Shown here piece after piece: positions 29,177 to 36,417 of a stretch of 64,000 nt of DNA. Origin of the DNA: Nonomuraea rubra (GTDB lineage: Bacteria; Actinomycetota; Actinomycetes; Streptosporangiales; Streptosporangiaceae); the NCBI RefSeq assembly GCF_014207985.1, contig NZ_JACHMI010000001.1, positions 8,601,001 to 8,665,000 of the forward strand, read 5' to 3'. Under the pieces are notes generated by a model. That model did not search any database, had not been told where the DNA came from, and worked only from the letters and a program-made list of their open reading frames with translations. A program made the position numbers and the translations under genes. Position 1 is the stretch's first letter, and each line of letters starts with the position of its first letter.

Positions 29177-31153
29177 CTACTCGCCCTTGTCGGCACGGTT
29201 GAGGCGGGCGAGGTAGGCGTTGTAGGAATCAAGCTCGGGATCGCCGCCGGCGCCGCGTTCGGCCCTGCGGTCGGCGCGCCGGGCCTGCCTGTCGTCGTCC
29301 TTGTACCACTGCACGGCGATGGCCAGCAGGACGATGAGCGTGGGGATCTCGCCGAAGCCCCACGCGATGGCGCCGCCGTCGCGCTGCGTCTGCAGCAGCG
29401 TGTCGCCCCACGTACGGCCGAGCTGCTCGTACCAGCCCGAGGCGATCACGGAGCCCATCATCATCAGCGCGATCCCGAAGAAGGCGTGGAACGGCATGGT
29501 GACGAAGAGCATCAGCAGCCGCCAGACGTACGGGAGCCGGTTCGGCCCGGGGTCGACGCCGATGATCACCCAGAAGAACAGGCAGCCGCTGATCAGGAAG
29601 TGCAGGGTCATCCAGATGTGGCCGAGGTGCTCGTTCATCGCCGACTCGAACAGCGGCGTGAAGTACAGCGCGTATGTCGAGGCCACGAAGATGGCGGTGG
29701 CGACCACGGGATGGGTGACGACCTTGGTGAACCGGCTGTGCAGGATCGTGGTGATCCACTCCCGCGGCCCCCTGTCGCCCCGCCTGGCGGCGGGCTTGAG
29801 CGCGCGCAGGGCCAGCGTGACGGGCCCGCCGAGGACGAGGAAGATCGGCACGACCATGGACAGCGTCATGTGCTCGATCATGTGCACGTCGAACATGACC
29901 TTGGCGTACCTGGCCAGGCCGCTCTGCGTGCAGAAGACGAGCAGCGCGACGCCGATGTACCAGGAGGCGGTGCGGCCCCACGACCACCGGTCGCCGCGCC
30001 GGCGCAGGCGCAGCAGGCCGGCACCGTAGAGCCCGGCCAGCACGGCCGCCACCACGGCGAAGAACAGGTCGAGCCACCACAGCGAGAAGATGTTGCCAAG
30101 GGTGAGCGGCGGCGGGAGGGGGAAGCCGAGCAGGTCGAAGGCCCGGTCCGCGGGGACGCTGTACTCGGGCGGCGGGGTGCGCGACAGCGCCACGGCGACG
30201 CCGATGGTGGCGAACATGAGCACCATCTCGCCGCCGGCCAGCCGGGTGAACGCGCGGGGCTTGCGGGCCTCCAGGTCCGCCAGCGTGCGCTGGCGGTGCC
30301 AGTAGCCGATGTAGCCGAGCAGCACGAACAGCACGATCTTGGCCACGGCGAGGAGGCCGTACTCGGTGGTCCACAGGTCGGAGACGGCGCCCAGGCGGGC
30401 GACCAGCGCGAAGACCCCGGACAGGCCCACCCCGGCGTAGCACCACAGCGCCATCCGGGAGAACCGGGCCGCGGCCACGTCGAGCTGCGGCTGCTTGCGC
30501 AGCGCGTGCAGGGCCAGCACGCCGAGCCCGCCCGTCCACAGCGCGAGCGAGAGCAGGTGCAGCGACACCGACGAGGTGGCCAGGTCGTGGTTGGGCGAGG
30601 AGGAGGTGTGCCCGGTCAGCGGCGCGGGCAGCAGCGTCGCCATCGCGAACACCAGCAGCCCCGCCGCCGCCCCGGCGGTGATGGCGCCGCGCGAGAACAG
30701 CGCGATGGCCACGCCGAACAGCACGACGAGCGTGAGCGCGACGCCCTGGGTGGTCTGGGTGGCGTAGCTGGTCAGGAAGGCCCGGTCGAGGATCTGCGGC
30801 ACGCTCCTGCCCATGGAGTCGGCGACGCCGAACACGATGGACAGGAACGCGGCGCCGGCCCACGCGAGGGCGGCCCACGAGGCGGCCTTGACGTACTCGA
30901 CGGCGCTCTTGCCGAGCACGCCCTTGTCGTTGGGCAGCAGCGCGGCGGCCATCAGCAGCAGGCCCACGGTGATCACGCCGGCGGCGTCCATGAGCAGCTT
31001 GGACAGCGGCAGCCCCCACCGCACGACGGCGCCGGCGTCGGGCAGCCCCGGGATGATCCTGGGGAACGCCCTGCCTCCGGCGATCATGCCGAGGACCAGC
31101 GCGGCGATCGCGGCCGCCGCCGTCACGAGCGCGAGGCGCGCCGCCCGGGTCAT
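29177..31153 (-). CDS. Fused CopD-like and CtaG-like copper membrane protein
   Basis: This 658-residue polytopic protein joins two parts. Residues up to about 330 form a CopD-type copper import domain with eight helices (SLHLLSLALWTGGLGVLALHAL contains paired His in a helix). Residues about 350-640 form a CtaG-like cytochrome c oxidase assembly domain (FDVHMIEHMTLSMVVPIFLVLGGPVTLALRAL). His and Met residues inside helices fit copper handling. It starts at ATG 31153, overlapping the stop of the CopC gene (ATGA). The pair probably moves copper across the membrane for cuproenzymes such as cytochrome oxidase. Confidence 0.9.
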   Translation of the reverse strand: MTRAARLALVTAAAAIAALVLGMIAGGRAFPRIIPGLPDAGAVVRWGLPLSKLLMDAAGVITVGLLLMAAALLPNDKGVLGKSAVEYVKAASWAALAWAGAAFLSIVFGVADSMGRSVPQILDRAFLTSYATQTTQGVALTLVVLFGVAIALFSRGAITAGAAAGLLVFAMATLLPAPLTGHTSSSPNHDLATSSVSLHLLSLALWTGGLGVLALHALRKQPQLDVAAARFSRMALWCYAGVGLSGVFALVARLGAVSDLWTTEYGLLAVAKIVLFVLLGYIGYWHRQRTLADLEARKPRAFTRLAGGEMVLMFATIGVAVALSRTPPPEYSVPADRAFDLLGFPLPPPLTLGNIFSLWWLDLFFAVVAAVLAGLYGAGLLRLRRRGDRWSWGRTASWYIGVALLVFCTQSGLARYAKVMFDVHMIEHMTLSMVVPIFLVLGGPVTLALRALKPAARRGDRGPREWITTILHSRFTKVVTHPVVATAIFVASTYALYFTPLFESAMNEHLGHIWMTLHFLISGCLFFWVIIGVDPGPNRLPYVWRLLMLFVTMPFHAFFGIALMMMGSVIASGWYEQLGRTWGDTLLQTQRDGGAIAWGFGEIPTLIVLLAIAVQWYKDDDRQARRADRRAERGAGGDPELDSYNAYLARLNRADKGE

Positions 31154-31809
31154 GGCTGCTTCTTCCGCGCGCTCAGCAGGAACCCGATGCCGATGCCGAC
31201 GAGCGCGCCGATGACGATGATCAGCCAGACGGGGAACGTCGCCCCCTGCTCGACGGCCGCCTGATCGGTGGCGGTCACCTCGGTGGCCGCGGGAGCCGGG
31301 GCGCTCGAGGCGGGCGCGCCGGTGGCGGCCGGCTCCCCCGACGCTGACACGGACGCCGACGCGGACGCCGACCCGGACGCCGACCCGGACGCCGACGGGG
31401 AGGGTGACGGGCTGGGGGCAGGCGTCTCGGCGCCCTTCACCCGGAACGGGATCTCTCCCTCGATCGGGTGCCCGTCGGAGGACACGACGCGGTAGGCGAT
31501 CGTGTACTTCCCGTCGGGCAGCGGCCCCTTGACCGCCTGCGTCACCACGGCGCCGTCCACCTCGGGCTTGCCGTTCTGGTGCTGGGCGTCTCCGTCGCCC
31601 CGCACGATGACGAACGGCATGCGCACCTTGGCGCTGAACTCCAGCTTGACCTCGTCGAGGGACTTGACCTCGGCGTTCTTGGCCGGAGAGCTGCTCTTGA
31701 GCGTGTCGTGCGCCAGTGCGGGCGCGGCGGAGCCGAACACGACGAGCCCGGACGCGAGCAGGGCGGAGGCGAGAATCGCGGTGAGGGCCGCGAGCGGGGA
31801 TCTCTTCAT
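31150..31809 (-). CDS. CopC-type copper-binding protein with membrane anchor
   Basis: A 219-residue exported protein. The signal peptide ends ALA, so His34 becomes the first mature residue, as required for the CopC copper(II) site; a second site is at SDGHP (112-115). The CopC beta-barrel covers about 34-127, followed by a Ser/Pro/Ala-rich linker with SAS repeats, and one C-terminal helix (VWLIIVIGALVGIGIGFLL). It delivers copper to the CopD domain of the protein encoded by the overlapping downstream gene. Confidence 0.92.
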   Translation of the reverse strand: MKRSPLAALTAILASALLASGLVVFGSAAPALAHDTLKSSSPAKNAEVKSLDEVKLEFSAKVRMPFVIVRGDGDAQHQNGKPEVDGAVVTQAVKGPLPDGKYTIAYRVVSSDGHPIEGEIPFRVKGAETPAPSPSPSPSASGSASGSASASASVSASGEPAATGAPASSAPAPAATEVTATDQAAVEQGATFPVWLIIVIGALVGIGIGFLLSARKKQP

Positions 31810-31869: not shown

Positions 31870-33153
31870 CTACAATCCCGCGCAGGCCAGCGCGCGCCGG
31901 TAGGCGTCGACCGCGCCGCCGGCGTCGCCGAGCTGCTCCATGGTCTCGGCCGTGGCGTACCAGTGGGAGGCCGAGCGGCGGGTGTCGGGCAGCGGCGAGA
32001 GCCAGCCCTCGACGCCGGCGGCGATCTCACGCCCCTCCTCCGTACGGCCGACGGCACCGTAGATGCGGGCGAGGAGCAGGTCGGCCTCGGCGCCCGCGAC
32101 GTGGCCGAAGCTGGGGAGCAGGCTCCTGCTGGCCCTGGCGTGCTCGGCGGCGCTGTCGAGGTCGTGACTCATGTATTCGGCGCAGGCCAGCTCCAGGTAG
32201 AGGGTGGCCTGGTCGATCGTGCTGGTCGAGGTCTGCTCGAACTCCGTGACGGCCGCCCGCAGGGCCTCGCGCGCGTTCACGGGGTCCTGCGCGCCGCTCC
32301 TGAGCCGCGTCCGCGTGGCCTGGAGCCGCATCCGGGCGGTGTTGCGCGGCTGGCCGTGCTCCATCTGCACCGCCAGGGCCCGCTCGATGAAGGTCACCGC
32401 CTCGTCGGTGTGCCCGGTGACGCGCGCGATGATCGAGGCGTTCCAGTTGGCCGCCACGATGGAGCGCGGGGTGCCCAGCGCGTCGGCCGCGTTGAGCAGC
32501 TCGGCCGCGAACTGCCTGGCGCGCAGCATGTCGCCGCGCTCGTAGTAGGCCATGAGGAGCGTGGCGGCCAGCTCGACCAGCAGGTCGTTCCAGGGCTGGC
32601 GGGCGTTGCCGCTGAGGAACTGCTCCCCCGCCTCGACGGCCTCGCTCAGCCGCTCGCTCTCCCGGTAGGCGCGGCACAGCGCGACGGCCACCTCGATGGC
32701 GCGGTCGGGCGAGAGCTCTTCCGCGCGGAGCTTGAGCAGGATCGAGATGGCCTGGTCGAGATCGCCGGCCGCCTCCGTCGCCAGGGCCAGGCCGAACTCG
32801 GCTTCTTGACGAAGCGATGTCAGACCTGCCAAGTTACTGTTCCCCAGCAGTTCCGCGAAGCGGGTGCGGGCCTCGGCGACCTCGCCGTTCTCGAGTGCCA
32901 GCCGCGCGTAGCCGAGAGCGAGCTCGATGTCCTCCATCTGCTCGGCGGTGACACCGTTGATCAGGTAGGACAGCGAGCAGTCGAGCTTGTTGGCCAGGAG
33001 CTCCAAGACTGCGGGAGTGGGGGTACGCTTGCCGCTCTCGATCAGCGAGACGTAACTGTCCGACAGCTCGGGATGGGCCAGCTGTGCCTGCGACAAGCCG
33101 CGTTGCCGCCGAACCGTCTTGATGCGGAGTCCGACTAGGTCAGATGTGGTCAC
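31870..33153 (-). CDS. HTH-TPR regulator, RRNPP-like architecture
   Basis: This 427-residue cytoplasmic protein is read from GTG 33153 after AGGGAG. An XRE/Cro-type HTH covers about residues 8-65 (RGLSQAQLAHPELSDSYVSLIESGKRTP). The rest consists of TPR-like helix pairs (for example AIEVAVALCRAYRESERLSEAVEAGEQFL and ATLYLELACAEYMSHDLDSAAEHARASRSLL). A DNA-binding head joined to a long TPR receptor is the layout of NprR, PlcR and Rgg, which bind re-imported signal peptides. A divergent gene 60 bp away encodes a short secreted peptide, which strengthens this reading. Binding of a peptide is inference; many actinobacterial XRE-TPR proteins have no known ligand. Confidence 0.85.
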   Translation of the reverse strand: MTTSDLVGLRIKTVRRQRGLSQAQLAHPELSDSYVSLIESGKRTPTPAVLELLANKLDCSLSYLINGVTAEQMEDIELALGYARLALENGEVAEARTRFAELLGNSNLAGLTSLRQEAEFGLALATEAAGDLDQAISILLKLRAEELSPDRAIEVAVALCRAYRESERLSEAVEAGEQFLSGNARQPWNDLLVELAATLLMAYYERGDMLRARQFAAELLNAADALGTPRSIVAANWNASIIARVTGHTDEAVTFIERALAVQMEHGQPRNTARMRLQATRTRLRSGAQDPVNAREALRAAVTEFEQTSTSTIDQATLYLELACAEYMSHDLDSAAEHARASRSLLPSFGHVAGAEADLLLARIYGAVGRTEEGREIAAGVEGWLSPLPDTRRSASHWYATAETMEQLGDAGGAVDAYRRALACAGL

Positions 33154-33213
33154 AGCTACCGCTCCCTGAGAAGATGAAATCCGAGCAACTCACAAAGGCG
33201 AGGGAGAACCCCC

Positions 33214-33348
33214 ATGCGCATGCGCATTGCCCTGTCGATCCTGGCTGTCGCGGTCGGCGCCGCGACAGTCCTAGGAGGTCATGTTACGGCCGCGAATGCC
33301 ACGGCGTCTTCCCTCTCGAGCGCCACAGCGGAGATCGGTTGCTGCTGA
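33214..33348 (+). CDS. 44-residue secreted peptide, candidate signal pre-peptide
   Basis: ATG 33214 is preceded by AGGGAG seven bases away, a strong ribosome site. The product begins MRMRIALSILAVAV, a clear n- and h-region, continues with GAATVLGGHVTAANA as a probable signal peptidase I site (AANA), and ends in the short mature part TASSLSSATAEIGCC. It contains no recognisable domain. It lies divergently from the HTH-TPR regulator with 60 bp between starts. By analogy with Phr, NprX and PapR, the C-terminal 5-8 residues (ending EIGCC) could be the active signal. The double Cys at the end is unusual. A two-Cys peptide of another kind, such as a modified peptide, is possible but no modification enzyme is adjacent. 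Confidence 0.65.
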   Translation: MRMRIALSILAVAVGAATVLGGHVTAANATASSLSSATAEIGCC

Positions 33349-33453
33349 GCCGAGCGAGAAGAGGCGAACGACGGGCACGAACCGCACTTCGCGCTCGTCG
33401 GCACCAGTGGTCTGGCAGGAAAGGGAGCCGTCAGGCCTGAGCCGCTGATCAGT

Positions 33454-33496
33454 CTGAGCCCACGTGACCGACCGCACCTCGGGCACGTGGGCTCAG
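33454..33496. terminator. Long hairpin after the peptide gene
   Basis: CTGAGCCCACGTG (33454-33466) pairs perfectly with CACGTGGGCTCAG (33484-33496) over a 17-nt loop. It lies 105 bp beyond the peptide stop and before the AfsR-like gene, and most likely ends the peptide transcript. Each arm also holds CACGTG, so a protein-binding site is possible. Confidence 0.6.
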
Positions 33497-33509
33497 CCTA
33501 GCCGCCCCG

Positions 33510-33527
33510 TCTACATTCCCTCTACAT
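33510..33527 (+). promoter_or_regulatory. 11-bp spaced direct repeat, SARP-type site
   Basis: TCTACAT occurs at 33510-33516 and 33521-33527, separated by four bases. Heptamer direct repeats with an 11-bp period are the known arrangement for SARP/AfsR binding. A possible promoter (TTTACG at 33543, 16 bp, TAAGCT at 33565) lies downstream, giving a nearly leaderless GTG start at 33577. Confidence 0.4.
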
Positions 33528-33576
33528 GACGGATTCGGCCTCTTTACGCTGCGGCCATCGGGACTAAGCTCCCTAC

Positions 33577-36417
33577 GTGGACGAGACTCGCGATCATGAG
33601 CGCCCCCCGGCCGATCTGACCGTAGGTCTCCTGGGCCCCGTCGTGGGCGTGCTCGGTGACAGGGAGATCGACCTGGGGCCGCCGCTCCAGCAGGCGATCG
33701 TAGCGATGCTCGCGATGAGTTCCAACCGCGTGGTCACCGTGAGCCAGCTGATCGAGGGTCTGTGGGGAGACGATCCTCCCCCCAGCGCCACCCAGAGCAT
33801 CTACACCTACATCGCGGGGTTACGGCGGGCGCTCGAGCCCGGCCGCCGCAGGCGACAGCCTCCGGGCAGGGTGTCCCGCGCTTCGGGCGGCTACCTGTTA
33901 CAGCTCGACCCCCTCCAGGTCGACGCCCACCTCTTCGCCGCGCGGCTCGACGCGGCGGCGCAGGCCAGGAAGTCCGGTGACTTCGCCGGCGCGTTGCGCG
34001 CCATCGACGAGGCGCTGGACTTGTGGCGCGGCCCGGCGCTGAGCGGCGTGCCGGGGCCCTTCGCCGATGGTGAGCGCGCCCGCCTCGACCAGCTCCAGGT
34101 GACGGCCGTGGAGACCCGGGCCGACGCGCTGCTGCGGCTCGGCCGCCCCGAGGAGGCGCTCGGGGAGCTGTACGAGCTGGTCCACCGCCACCCCCTCAGG
34201 GAGCGCCCGGGCGAGCTGCTCATGCTGGCCCTGCACGGGTGCGGGCGCCAGGCCGAGGCGCTGGCGGTGTTCGAGGAGGCCCGGCGTGCTCTGTCGGATG
34301 AGCTCGGCATCCTTCCCGGCGAGGGCCTGCGCCGCGCGCATCGCGTCGTCCTGTCGGGTGCCGGCGAGCCCGCGGCCCCTGATCACGTCAAACCACGCCA
34401 GCTTCCCGGCGACCTGCTCGTCTTCGTCGGCCGCACGCGGGAGACCGTCCGGCTCAGATCCCTGCTGGATCCCTGGGGTGACGAGCCTCCGCACCCGTTC
34501 GTCGTGATCTGCGGCCCGCCCGGTGTCGGGAAGTCGGCGCTGGCCGTCCACGTCGCCCACATGGTGCGCGAACGGTTCCCCGACGGGCAGCTCTACGTCA
34601 ACCTGCGCGGGGGCACGCCGAACGTCCCCCGGCCGTCCACCCACGAGATCTTCAGCCGCCTGCTGCGCGGCCTCGGCACGCCGGACAGCGCCATTCCCGA
34701 GGACGAGGACGAGGCCGCCGCCCTGTGGCGGAGCAAGCTGCAGAGCGGGCGGCTGCTCCTCGTCCTGGACAACGCCGCCGACCTGGCGCAGGTCAAGCCG
34801 TTCATCTCGGCACCCCGCGGCACCGCGGTGCTGGTCACGAGCCGCGAGTCCCTGACAGCCGGGGACGACTGCGCCCAGGTCCGCCTGCACCCCCTCTCGG
34901 ACGCCGAGGCCACGGCCATGCTGGCCAAGCTGGTCGGAGCGGACCGGGTATCGGCCGACCTCGACCAGACCACTCACCTGGTGCGGCTCTGCGACGGTTT
35001 CCCCCTCGCCCTCCGGGTCGCCGGGGCGCGGCTGATCGACCGTCCCGACTGGAGCGTAGGCGCGCTGACGATGCGGCTCACCGACGAGCGGCGCCGCCTG
35101 CGCGAGCTGGAGGCGGGCGACCTCGCCGTACGGTCGAGCCTGGCGGCGAGCTGGAACGCGCTGAACGGCAGCACCCGCGAGCTCGACGGCGAGGCGGCGC
35201 ACCTGCTGGCCCTGCTGGGCCTGCTGCACGTGCCCGACGTCACCGTGGAGGCGGCCGCGGCGCTGTCCGAGTCCTCCCCGGTCGACGTCGAGCGAGCCCT
35301 GGAACGGCTCTGTGACGCCCACCTGCTGGAGGCCGGCGAGCCGGGCCGCTACCACCCGCACGACCTCGTCCGGCTCTTCGCGGGCGACCTGCTGCCCGCC
35401 GGCGAGCGGATCGCGCCGCTCAAGCGGGCGATCGGCTACTACGCCGAGTCCGCGCGGGCCGCGGCGCGGACCAGCGACCCGCACCGGGTCCACTGCCTGT
35501 ATCCGCCGCTGGACGTCCGCGGCCGCGGCTTCGACAGCGCGGACGAGGCGCGCGCCTGGCTCAGGAGGGAGGAGACCATCCTGCTCGCCGCCGCCTTCCA
35601 GGCGATGGCGGATCCGGACGACGACATCGCGCGGGCCGGCGCGGGGATCGCCCTCGCCCTGTGGTGGTACCAGCAGGCCGCGTACCGGGTGCCCGGCCTG
35701 ATCTCGCTGGGCGAGCAGTTGCTCGCGACGGGGGAGCGCCTCGACGACCGGGTCATCACGATGGAGGGGCATGCCCACATCGCCACGGGGCTGTACCTCA
35801 AGGGCGACTGGGCCGCGTGCATCCAGCACCACGAGTGGCACCTCCGGCTGGCGCGGCTGCTCGGTGACCGCTTCAACGAGCAGCGAGCGCACGGCAACCT
35901 GGCCGGCACGCTCATGAAATGGGACCGGTGCTCCGATGCGCTGGAGCACGCGCTCGCCCAGCGCGTGATCGCCCGCGACATCGCGTCCGGGCCGGGAGAA
36001 CGCTACGCCCTGCTCGTGGCGGGGCGGGCCTACACGGGCCTCGGCCGGTTCAAGGAGGCCGCGATCACGCTGGACGAGGGCGCGGCGCTGGCGGACCAGG
36101 CGGGCGACTCCCTCCGGCAGGTGGAATTCACCGTGGCGCGCGGGCTGGTCCTGATCGAGCTCGGCGAGCGGGAGTCCGCGCTGGCCCTGCTCTCCGAGGT
36201 GCTCGAGCCGGCCCGCGCTACCGGGATGAAGATGACCGAGGTCAACTGCGTCGTGCTGCTGGCGCGGGCCCACCGCCTGCTCGGCCGGACCCGCGAGGCC
36301 ATGAGGTACAGCATCGAAGCGCTCGTGCTCGCCGAGCAGATGGGCAGCCCGTACTGGATCCGGGAGGCGACCAGGGAACGCGAGGCGGCGACGGGCCAGC
36401 GCTCGGTCACCGCGTGA
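33577..36417 (+). CDS. AfsR-like SARP regulator (BTAD, NB-ARC, TPR)
   Basis: This 946-residue protein starts at GTG 33577. A winged-helix OmpR-like DNA-binding domain (about 15-110) and bacterial transcriptional activation domain (about 115-262) are followed by an NB-ARC ATPase with Walker A GPPGVGKS (313-320) and Walker B LLLVLDN, then TPR repeats from about 680 to the end. AfsR-type proteins integrate signals, often through phosphorylation, to switch on secondary metabolism or development. No biosynthetic cluster is in the window. The nearby HTH-TPR/peptide pair may act upstream of it, which is inference. Confidence 0.93.
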   Translation: MDETRDHERPPADLTVGLLGPVVGVLGDREIDLGPPLQQAIVAMLAMSSNRVVTVSQLIEGLWGDDPPPSATQSIYTYIAGLRRALEPGRRRRQPPGRVSRASGGYLLQLDPLQVDAHLFAARLDAAAQARKSGDFAGALRAIDEALDLWRGPALSGVPGPFADGERARLDQLQVTAVETRADALLRLGRPEEALGELYELVHRHPLRERPGELLMLALHGCGRQAEALAVFEEARRALSDELGILPGEGLRRAHRVVLSGAGEPAAPDHVKPRQLPGDLLVFVGRTRETVRLRSLLDPWGDEPPHPFVVICGPPGVGKSALAVHVAHMVRERFPDGQLYVNLRGGTPNVPRPSTHEIFSRLLRGLGTPDSAIPEDEDEAAALWRSKLQSGRLLLVLDNAADLAQVKPFISAPRGTAVLVTSRESLTAGDDCAQVRLHPLSDAEATAMLAKLVGADRVSADLDQTTHLVRLCDGFPLALRVAGARLIDRPDWSVGALTMRLTDERRRLRELEAGDLAVRSSLAASWNALNGSTRELDGEAAHLLALLGLLHVPDVTVEAAAALSESSPVDVERALERLCDAHLLEAGEPGRYHPHDLVRLFAGDLLPAGERIAPLKRAIGYYAESARAAARTSDPHRVHCLYPPLDVRGRGFDSADEARAWLRREETILLAAAFQAMADPDDDIARAGAGIALALWWYQQAAYRVPGLISLGEQLLATGERLDDRVITMEGHAHIATGLYLKGDWAACIQHHEWHLRLARLLGDRFNEQRAHGNLAGTLMKWDRCSDALEHALAQRVIARDIASGPGERYALLVAGRAYTGLGRFKEAAITLDEGAALADQAGDSLRQVEFTVARGLVLIELGERESALALLSEVLEPARATGMKMTEVNCVVLLARAHRLLGRTREAMRYSIEALVLAEQMGSPYWIREATREREAATGQRSVTA

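Follow-up and report, generated by a model that had tools for sequence, protein, structure and literature searches.

Does a small open reading frame (ORF) beside a regulator gene in the actinomycete Nonomuraea rubra encode a peptide signal that the regulator reads? The window analyzed here is a stretch of 64,000 nucleotides (64 kb) of contig NZ_JACHMI010000001.1 (assembly GCF_014207985.1, positions 8,601,001 to 8,665,000, forward strand), part of a 12.88-Mb genome. It contains a gene for a 427-residue regulator with a helix-turn-helix (HTH) domain and tetratricopeptide repeats (TPR) and, 60 bp away, a divergent ORF of 44 amino acids (aa). A sequence-only reading of the window had proposed that the two are an actinomycete counterpart of the RRNPP receptor–peptide pairs, and both genes are confirmed as real. 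Computation shows a conserved gene pair, a signal-peptide-like precursor with a conserved C-terminus, and the receptor fold, and the observation is more general than that reading, as it spans several actinobacterial families. We put the probability at roughly two in three that the pair is an RRNPP-like system of Actinomycetota, with a secreted peptide that ends in two cysteines (Cys-Cys, or CC) and a cytosolic receptor.

Conservation of the pair within Streptosporangiaceae

The regulator was matched in 54 of 54 genomes of the genus, with a best match in each that is 58–100% identical. The nearest by regulator identity among the named loci is [Actinomadura] parvosata subsp. kistnae (94%, among Nonomuraea). 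For the family Streptosporangiaceae, the best 80 of 122 related loci were used, some of them cut by contig ends. A divergent signal-peptide ORF lies upstream of the regulator in all 80 orthologous loci: 78 were found by a fixed rule, at 50–67 bp, and two (L090 and L094) by a hydrophobicity screen. The 18 loci for which the initial hydrophobicity screen gave no ORF were then read frame by frame. The tail ends in CC in 72 of the 80 (70 of the 78, plus L090 and L094), in W-x-x-P-(D/G) in L075, L076, L083, L095, L098, L101 and L108, and in GPLNNAE in L087. The strong ribosome site claimed for the small ORF is present as GAGGGAG, and the claimed signal peptide and EIGCC tail proved to be features that relatives share, the first at every locus and the CC end at most of them.

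In an alignment of 43 precursors (40–53 aa) all gaps preserve the frame and CC is always final. The length variation falls between signal peptide and tail, and the residues ahead of CC vary widely between precursors. The ratio of nonsynonymous to synonymous substitution rates (dN/dS), computed from 43 sequences and only for pairs at most 30% divergent, is 0.66 in frame versus 0.77 and 1.18 in the other two frames, the +1 frame being not far off; for the signal part it is 0.57 in frame. This is coding-level constraint of a modest degree, in line with the codon-level selection expected from the earlier reading. Neither of two conditions that would have refuted that reading, an ORF missing beside homologous regulators or a frame free of selection, was thus borne out. 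A search with the peptide over 5.8 billion proteins returned two proteins, one of which was the query.

Several further arrangements were seen in the family. At L079 the receptor–peptide pair is duplicated in tandem with diverged tails (KDIFCC and APRCC). The pair is present in Nonomuraea gerenzanensis (NZ_LT559118.1, tail TGDAGCC), in an 11.85-Mb record that is labelled plasmid I and, given its size, is more likely a chromosome. One genome of the genus (G000) also encodes a second HTH-TPR regulator, 32% identical, at positions 12534619–12535896 of its contig C1; no CC ORF was seen beside it among the listed ORFs. Further genomes of the genus hold a similar second regulator among the matches listed.

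The regulator resembles RRNPP receptors in architecture

Pfam assigns HTH_3 (E 3.2e-11) and TPR_12 (E 1.1e-8) to the regulator, and no signal peptide is apparent in its translation. The AlphaFold 2 model, built from 57 sequences, has an HTH followed by nine helix pairs (mean predicted local distance difference test score 90.2, predicted template modelling score 0.80). PlcR was the first natural protein matched in a profile search of the PDB, and Rap and NprR were among the best matches in a structural comparison. Domains, model and profile match together bear out a receptor architecture like that of the RRNPP(A) family, an HTH with a predicted TPR superhelix.

The pairing recurs beyond the family

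At least 61 of 394 genomes of the class match the regulator alignment at E 1e-25 or better, a lower bound since four candidates per genome were scored. From this search we examined 30 loci and 40 further places; the other places listed, which include three of family f19, G199 and several more paralogue copies, were left unopened. A fixed rule was applied: an ORF of at most 120 aa with a CC end and a hydrophobic stretch, whose stop lies at most 400 bp from the receptor. Such an ORF is present at 68 of the 80 named family loci, at 5 of another 12 from the family (the seven without one are members of the W-x-x-P clade), at 34 of 51 class-level loci (L131–L181) and at 2 of 29 phylum-level loci. 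Seven of the 17 class-level misses belong to a paralogue group, and three (L131, L154 and L156) are located at the end of a contig; at two (L181 and L160) there is a CC ORF that does not fit the rule. L128–L130 have no rule-fitting ORF (0 of 3); we had guessed that peptides ending HCC would stand beside these E238 receptors, and this failed, as no CC ORF was found there.

There are 110 CC ORFs in the 138 kb beside receptors and 3 in 954 kb elsewhere in the same loci, about 250-fold denser, a descriptive ratio since the rule was set post hoc, the loci are related and some species come from two sources. Class-level receptors are 28–35% identical to the window regulator (44 loci, paralogues left out). 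The CC ORF is divergent and upstream in some families and convergent and downstream in others. Orientation and neighbouring genes both differ, and therefore the receptor plus its peptide is the unit.

Six plasmid loci were opened (L212–L217), five from Streptomyces and one from Streptosporangium. A CC ORF lies near two of the five Streptomyces loci (at 167 bp in L213 and 1.9 kb in L215); both are annotated as hypothetical proteins and both end in PLCC. At the class-level locus L152 one receptor stands between two CC pre-peptides that share DFCC, the upstream one ending PTASPGDFCC and the downstream one PDGGSDFCC. The 11.9-kb faecal contig MT836207.1 is labelled as phage and may be mislabelled bacterial DNA; a CC receptor has a relative (81%) encoded at the contig's edge.

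Distant HTH-TPR receptors from other families of the phylum (L183–L186, L190, L195, L197, L199 and L200) have divergent hydrophobic ORFs of 28–40 aa upstream. Their ends are SGYPWPK, AGFPWPK, SFPWGGT, SFPGP, NWPHH, TWPHC, PWPHCC, PWPPCC or FPGCCG, and they may represent an earlier version of this peptide family. In family f18, with genomes of 6–10 Mb, divergent hydrophobic ORFs of 37–58 aa stand beside HTH-TPR receptors (L203, L208, L209 and L211); these are alike among themselves and lack the CC end.

Receptor positions that may go with the tail

From an alignment of 175 receptors, four sets were compared: 78 CC receptors from the family, 34 CC receptors from other families, 15 members of the W-x-x-P clade (13 distinct sequences) and seven CC-less paralogues. 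Left out of position selection were 28 phylum-level receptors, 10 class-level receptors that have no rule-fitting CC ORF next to them, and L128–L130. The two CC groups agree at 87 positions (at least 85% and at least 60%, respectively). At six of these the W-x-x-P clade falls below half: L87 (6 of 15), G176 (0), T198 (2), A234 (0), N238 (0) and L361 (1). The CC-less paralogues have none of T198, A234 and N238 (0 of 7 each) and also drop under half at a further 27 of the 87. Counted from the G-D turn of each repeat, T198 is at position 6 of helix A in repeat 4, and A234 and N238 are at positions 2 and 6 of helix A in repeat 5; in TPR proteins the ligand groove is lined by residues at such places. 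In the receptor tree the W-x-x-P clade comes out as monophyletic (1.0) inside the CC receptors (0.951; deeper family nodes 0.30–0.38), and so the change from CC to W-x-x-P is a single event. The L087/L116 receptors, with a peptide that has neither motif, have also lost E127 and R161. L123 has lost both too, yet its peptide still ends PWGYPI. A link between H or D at tail position −3 and M/I238 with N241 (7 of 7 such Nonomuraea) came from related species and was not confirmed.

One other family was searched in 100 genomes. Already-seen genomes, repeats of one receptor and HTH-less copies were left out, and 21 receptors were kept, all from genomes new to the analysis; one of them, the first of the copies at L244, overlaps a match that contains two stops. 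Receptors with E127, R161, T/S198, W237 and N238 have an adjacent CC ORF in 9 of 14 cases and those without this signature in 0 of 7 (p 0.007 as drawn, the positions coming from the earlier comparison, with S198 allowed and A234 dropped after the loci had been seen). With E127 and R161 alone the counts are 9 of 15 versus 0 of 6. L258 (G806:C23) in this family has two tandem receptors with a separate convergent CC ORF after each of them, the related tails being RWGCC and KYGCC. At L255 (G849:C11:1500-13000) tandem TPR receptors without an HTH match flank a CC pre-peptide ending ADPKLCC, which recalls the Rap side of RRNPP.

Proposed mechanism and alternative explanations

The 44-aa precursor would leave the cell through Sec and lose its signal peptide by cleavage at an A-x-A motif, probably A-N-A to judge from the sequence, yielding a short extracellular peptide that ends in Cys-Cys. 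This peptide, perhaps trimmed further, would re-enter the cell through an oligopeptide permease. Candidate import and cleavage parts exist in the source genome, with 32 SBP_bac_5 and 6 Peptidase_S26 matches. The C-terminus would then bind in the groove on the concave side of the TPR superhelix, with T198, A234 and N238 as its most likely neighbours in a hypothesized pocket, and binding would alter the action of the regulator on DNA, first at the pair's own divergent promoters, which overlap. In sister genera a −35-like TTGAC of the peptide gene sits inside the first regulator codons; the two promoters therefore probably overlap, and autoregulation is for the same reason the safest guess on targets. 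GGTCAC was considered as an operator between the genes, but its conservation can be explained by the regulator start codons, and no operator is claimed. From these genomic patterns we infer an action of the peptide on the regulator, along with its secretion, cleavage, import and binding and the autoregulation; a function in sensing cell density, in development or in metabolism is possible.

Several tests of the receptor side gave no significant result. The two CC-less groups share lost positions no more often than chance would have it (p 0.34), and the grouping of three of the six lost positions on helices A4 and A5 likewise falls short of significance (p 0.09). The tree-based test of receptor–tail co-change is not significant, with N238 ranking 338 of 389 for tail position −3. 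Stricter signatures in the second family also fail to reach significance (p 0.39 or 0.60): T198 only gives 6 of 11 versus 3 of 10, and T198, A234 and N238 together give 1 of 4 versus 8 of 17. Covariation of receptor and peptide is thus weakly supported, and the meeting of the tail with the receptor near T198, A234 and N238 is suggestive, not significant. That the covariation is not significant also speaks for a rival in which the peptide is an output, a secreted dicysteine mini-protein with, for example, a role in copper or zinc handling or in the envelope, made under control of the divergent regulator. Cys-Cys can bind soft metals, and genes for CopC and CopD each follow the regulator in 79 of 80 family loci, a strong synteny. 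We nevertheless regard an output as quite unlikely, since the W-x-x-P tails have no Cys and since the 83 loci among L128–L211 other than the window's own, with flanks of only about 1.5–2 kb, gave no CopC match and a CopD match only at L130. A general copper link is accordingly dropped for lack of support outside the family and kept as a rival within it.

The same genomic data would fit a regulator that detects, inside the producing cell and with no re-import, precursor that has not been cut or exported, or a fragment of it; the pair would then report on the load of Sec or signal peptidase or on the redox state of the cytosol. What is conserved is the signal peptide and the CC end, and with cytosolic thiols mostly reduced, free Cys-Cys would be the sensed head. 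We regard such monitoring of export as unlikely: one clade has replaced CC by W-x-x-P and so can do without thiol chemistry, and the widely varying residues before CC look more like a specificity code. A short precursor with a conserved C-terminal CC might also belong to a ribosomally synthesized and post-translationally modified peptide, cysteines commonly serving as modification sites, or be a non-signalling membrane micro-protein co-inherited with the regulator. Both are very unlikely, as the pairing outlasts changes of neighbourhood and orientation; no shared modifying enzyme was noticed in the listed flanking ORFs, in which such enzymes were not searched for. High-GC DNA is rich in short ORFs and dN/dS is only modestly lower in frame, but a chance or mis-annotated frame is effectively refuted by the conservation in 80 of 80 loci, the approximately 250-fold enrichment beside receptors and the frame-preserving indels.

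Beyond the secreted-peptide reading of this pair, a wider picture is possible, though somewhat less likely than not. Actinomycetota may share a widespread peptide language, in which species-specific secreted peptides are read by HTH-TPR and sometimes by HTH-less, Rap-like receptors. The dicysteine would be the common recognition head, possibly redox-switched (an oxidized vicinal disulfide outside the cell, reduced inside), and some clades would have swapped this head for Trp-x-x-Pro alongside changes in the groove. A gene-encoded peptide code with an adjacent receptor would make the control of development and metabolism in antibiotic producers testable with synthetic peptides of 5 to 15 residues, and the natural switch from CC to W-x-x-P is a ready-made specificity experiment.

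Genomic context

The features of the locus are collected in Table 1. The hairpin terminator reported after the peptide gene is borne out by the inverted repeat there. The AfsR-like gene described as following the pair does so, as a SARP-type regulator; as a conserved partner or target it fails, with a match above 80 bits in only 31 of 80 family loci, some of them cut by contig ends, and a SARP-linked switch of secondary metabolism is not supported.

Table 1. Positions, within the window, of the regulator–peptide pair and neighbouring features
Feature	Position	Strand	Basis or remark
CopD / Caa3_CtaG gene	29177..31153	minus	Pfam, synteny
CopC-domain gene	31150..31809	minus	Downstream of regulator, same strand; Pfam, synteny
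HTH-TPR regulator, proposed cytosolic receptor	31870..33153	minus	427 aa, GTG start; Pfam domains
Regulator codons N238, W237, A234	32440-32442, 32443-32445, 32452-32454	minus	
Regulator codons T198, R161, E127	32560-32562, 32671-32673, 32773-32775	minus	
Intergenic region common to both divergent genes	33154..33213		60 bp; -10-like AAGATG at 33171-33176
Ribosome-binding site GAGGGAG of small ORF	33200..33206	plus	Sequence
44-aa pre-peptide gene, proposed signal precursor MRMRIALSILAVAVGAATVLGGHVTAANATASSLSSATAEIGCC	33214..33348	plus	ORF translation, conservation
Putative signal peptide MRMRIALSILAVAVGAATVLGGHVTAANA	33214..33300	plus	Sequence and motif scan; A-N-A signal-peptidase I motif
C-terminal tail EIGCC	33331..33345	plus	Cys-Cys codons 33340-33345, the conserved end
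Tail forms as candidate ligands: EIGCC, AEIGCC, TASSLSSATAEIGCC			
Terminator-like inverted repeat 3' of peptide gene	33451..33499	plus	Arms 33451-33471 and 33479-33499, 21 nt, 90% complementary
SARP-type regulator	33577..36417	plus	BTAD, Trans_reg_C, NB-ARC; Pfam

Comparison with known systems

Like the RRNPP(A) systems of Bacillota (PlcR-PapR, NprR-NprX, Rap-Phr and AimR-AimP), the pair combines an XRE-type HTH with a predicted TPR superhelix (TPR alone in L255), and a short Sec-type precursor with a variable tail is encoded next to the receptor. It differs in its phylum, Actinomycetota, and in a tail that is mostly Cys-Cys, and the likeness is one of shared domains and gene arrangement. The available text of three sources places the RRNPP family in Firmicutes/Bacillota (PMC10075063, PMC9765709, PMC12700828). 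Our literature search, whose scope excluded most subscription papers and bioRxiv preprints, identified no paper on such an actinobacterial system. The regulator reaches 25.9 bits (E 6.3e-6) against the NsdA family of NCBIfam (NF053720), below the cut-off of 75 bits, and is not a member.

Streptococcal Rgg-SHP pairs also have a short hydrophobic precursor beside an HTH receptor and are often divergent. SHP precursors are shorter and are not known to end in CC, and the actinobacterial precursor, unlike them, usually has an A-x-A motif of the signal-peptidase I type.

Within the phylum, known signals are typically enzyme-made small molecules, according to the accessible part of one source (PMC10075063), and a 2016 review, as far as its available text goes, also mentions cyclic or modified peptides (PMC4748050). 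The same text describes gamma-butyrolactone signalling, which shares with the system proposed here a cytosolic receptor for a diffusible signal (PMC4748050). The chief known signals of actinobacteria are butyrolactones. Gamma-butyrolactones are small molecules made by enzymes and bound by a different receptor family, whereas the signal proposed here would be a peptide encoded by a gene.

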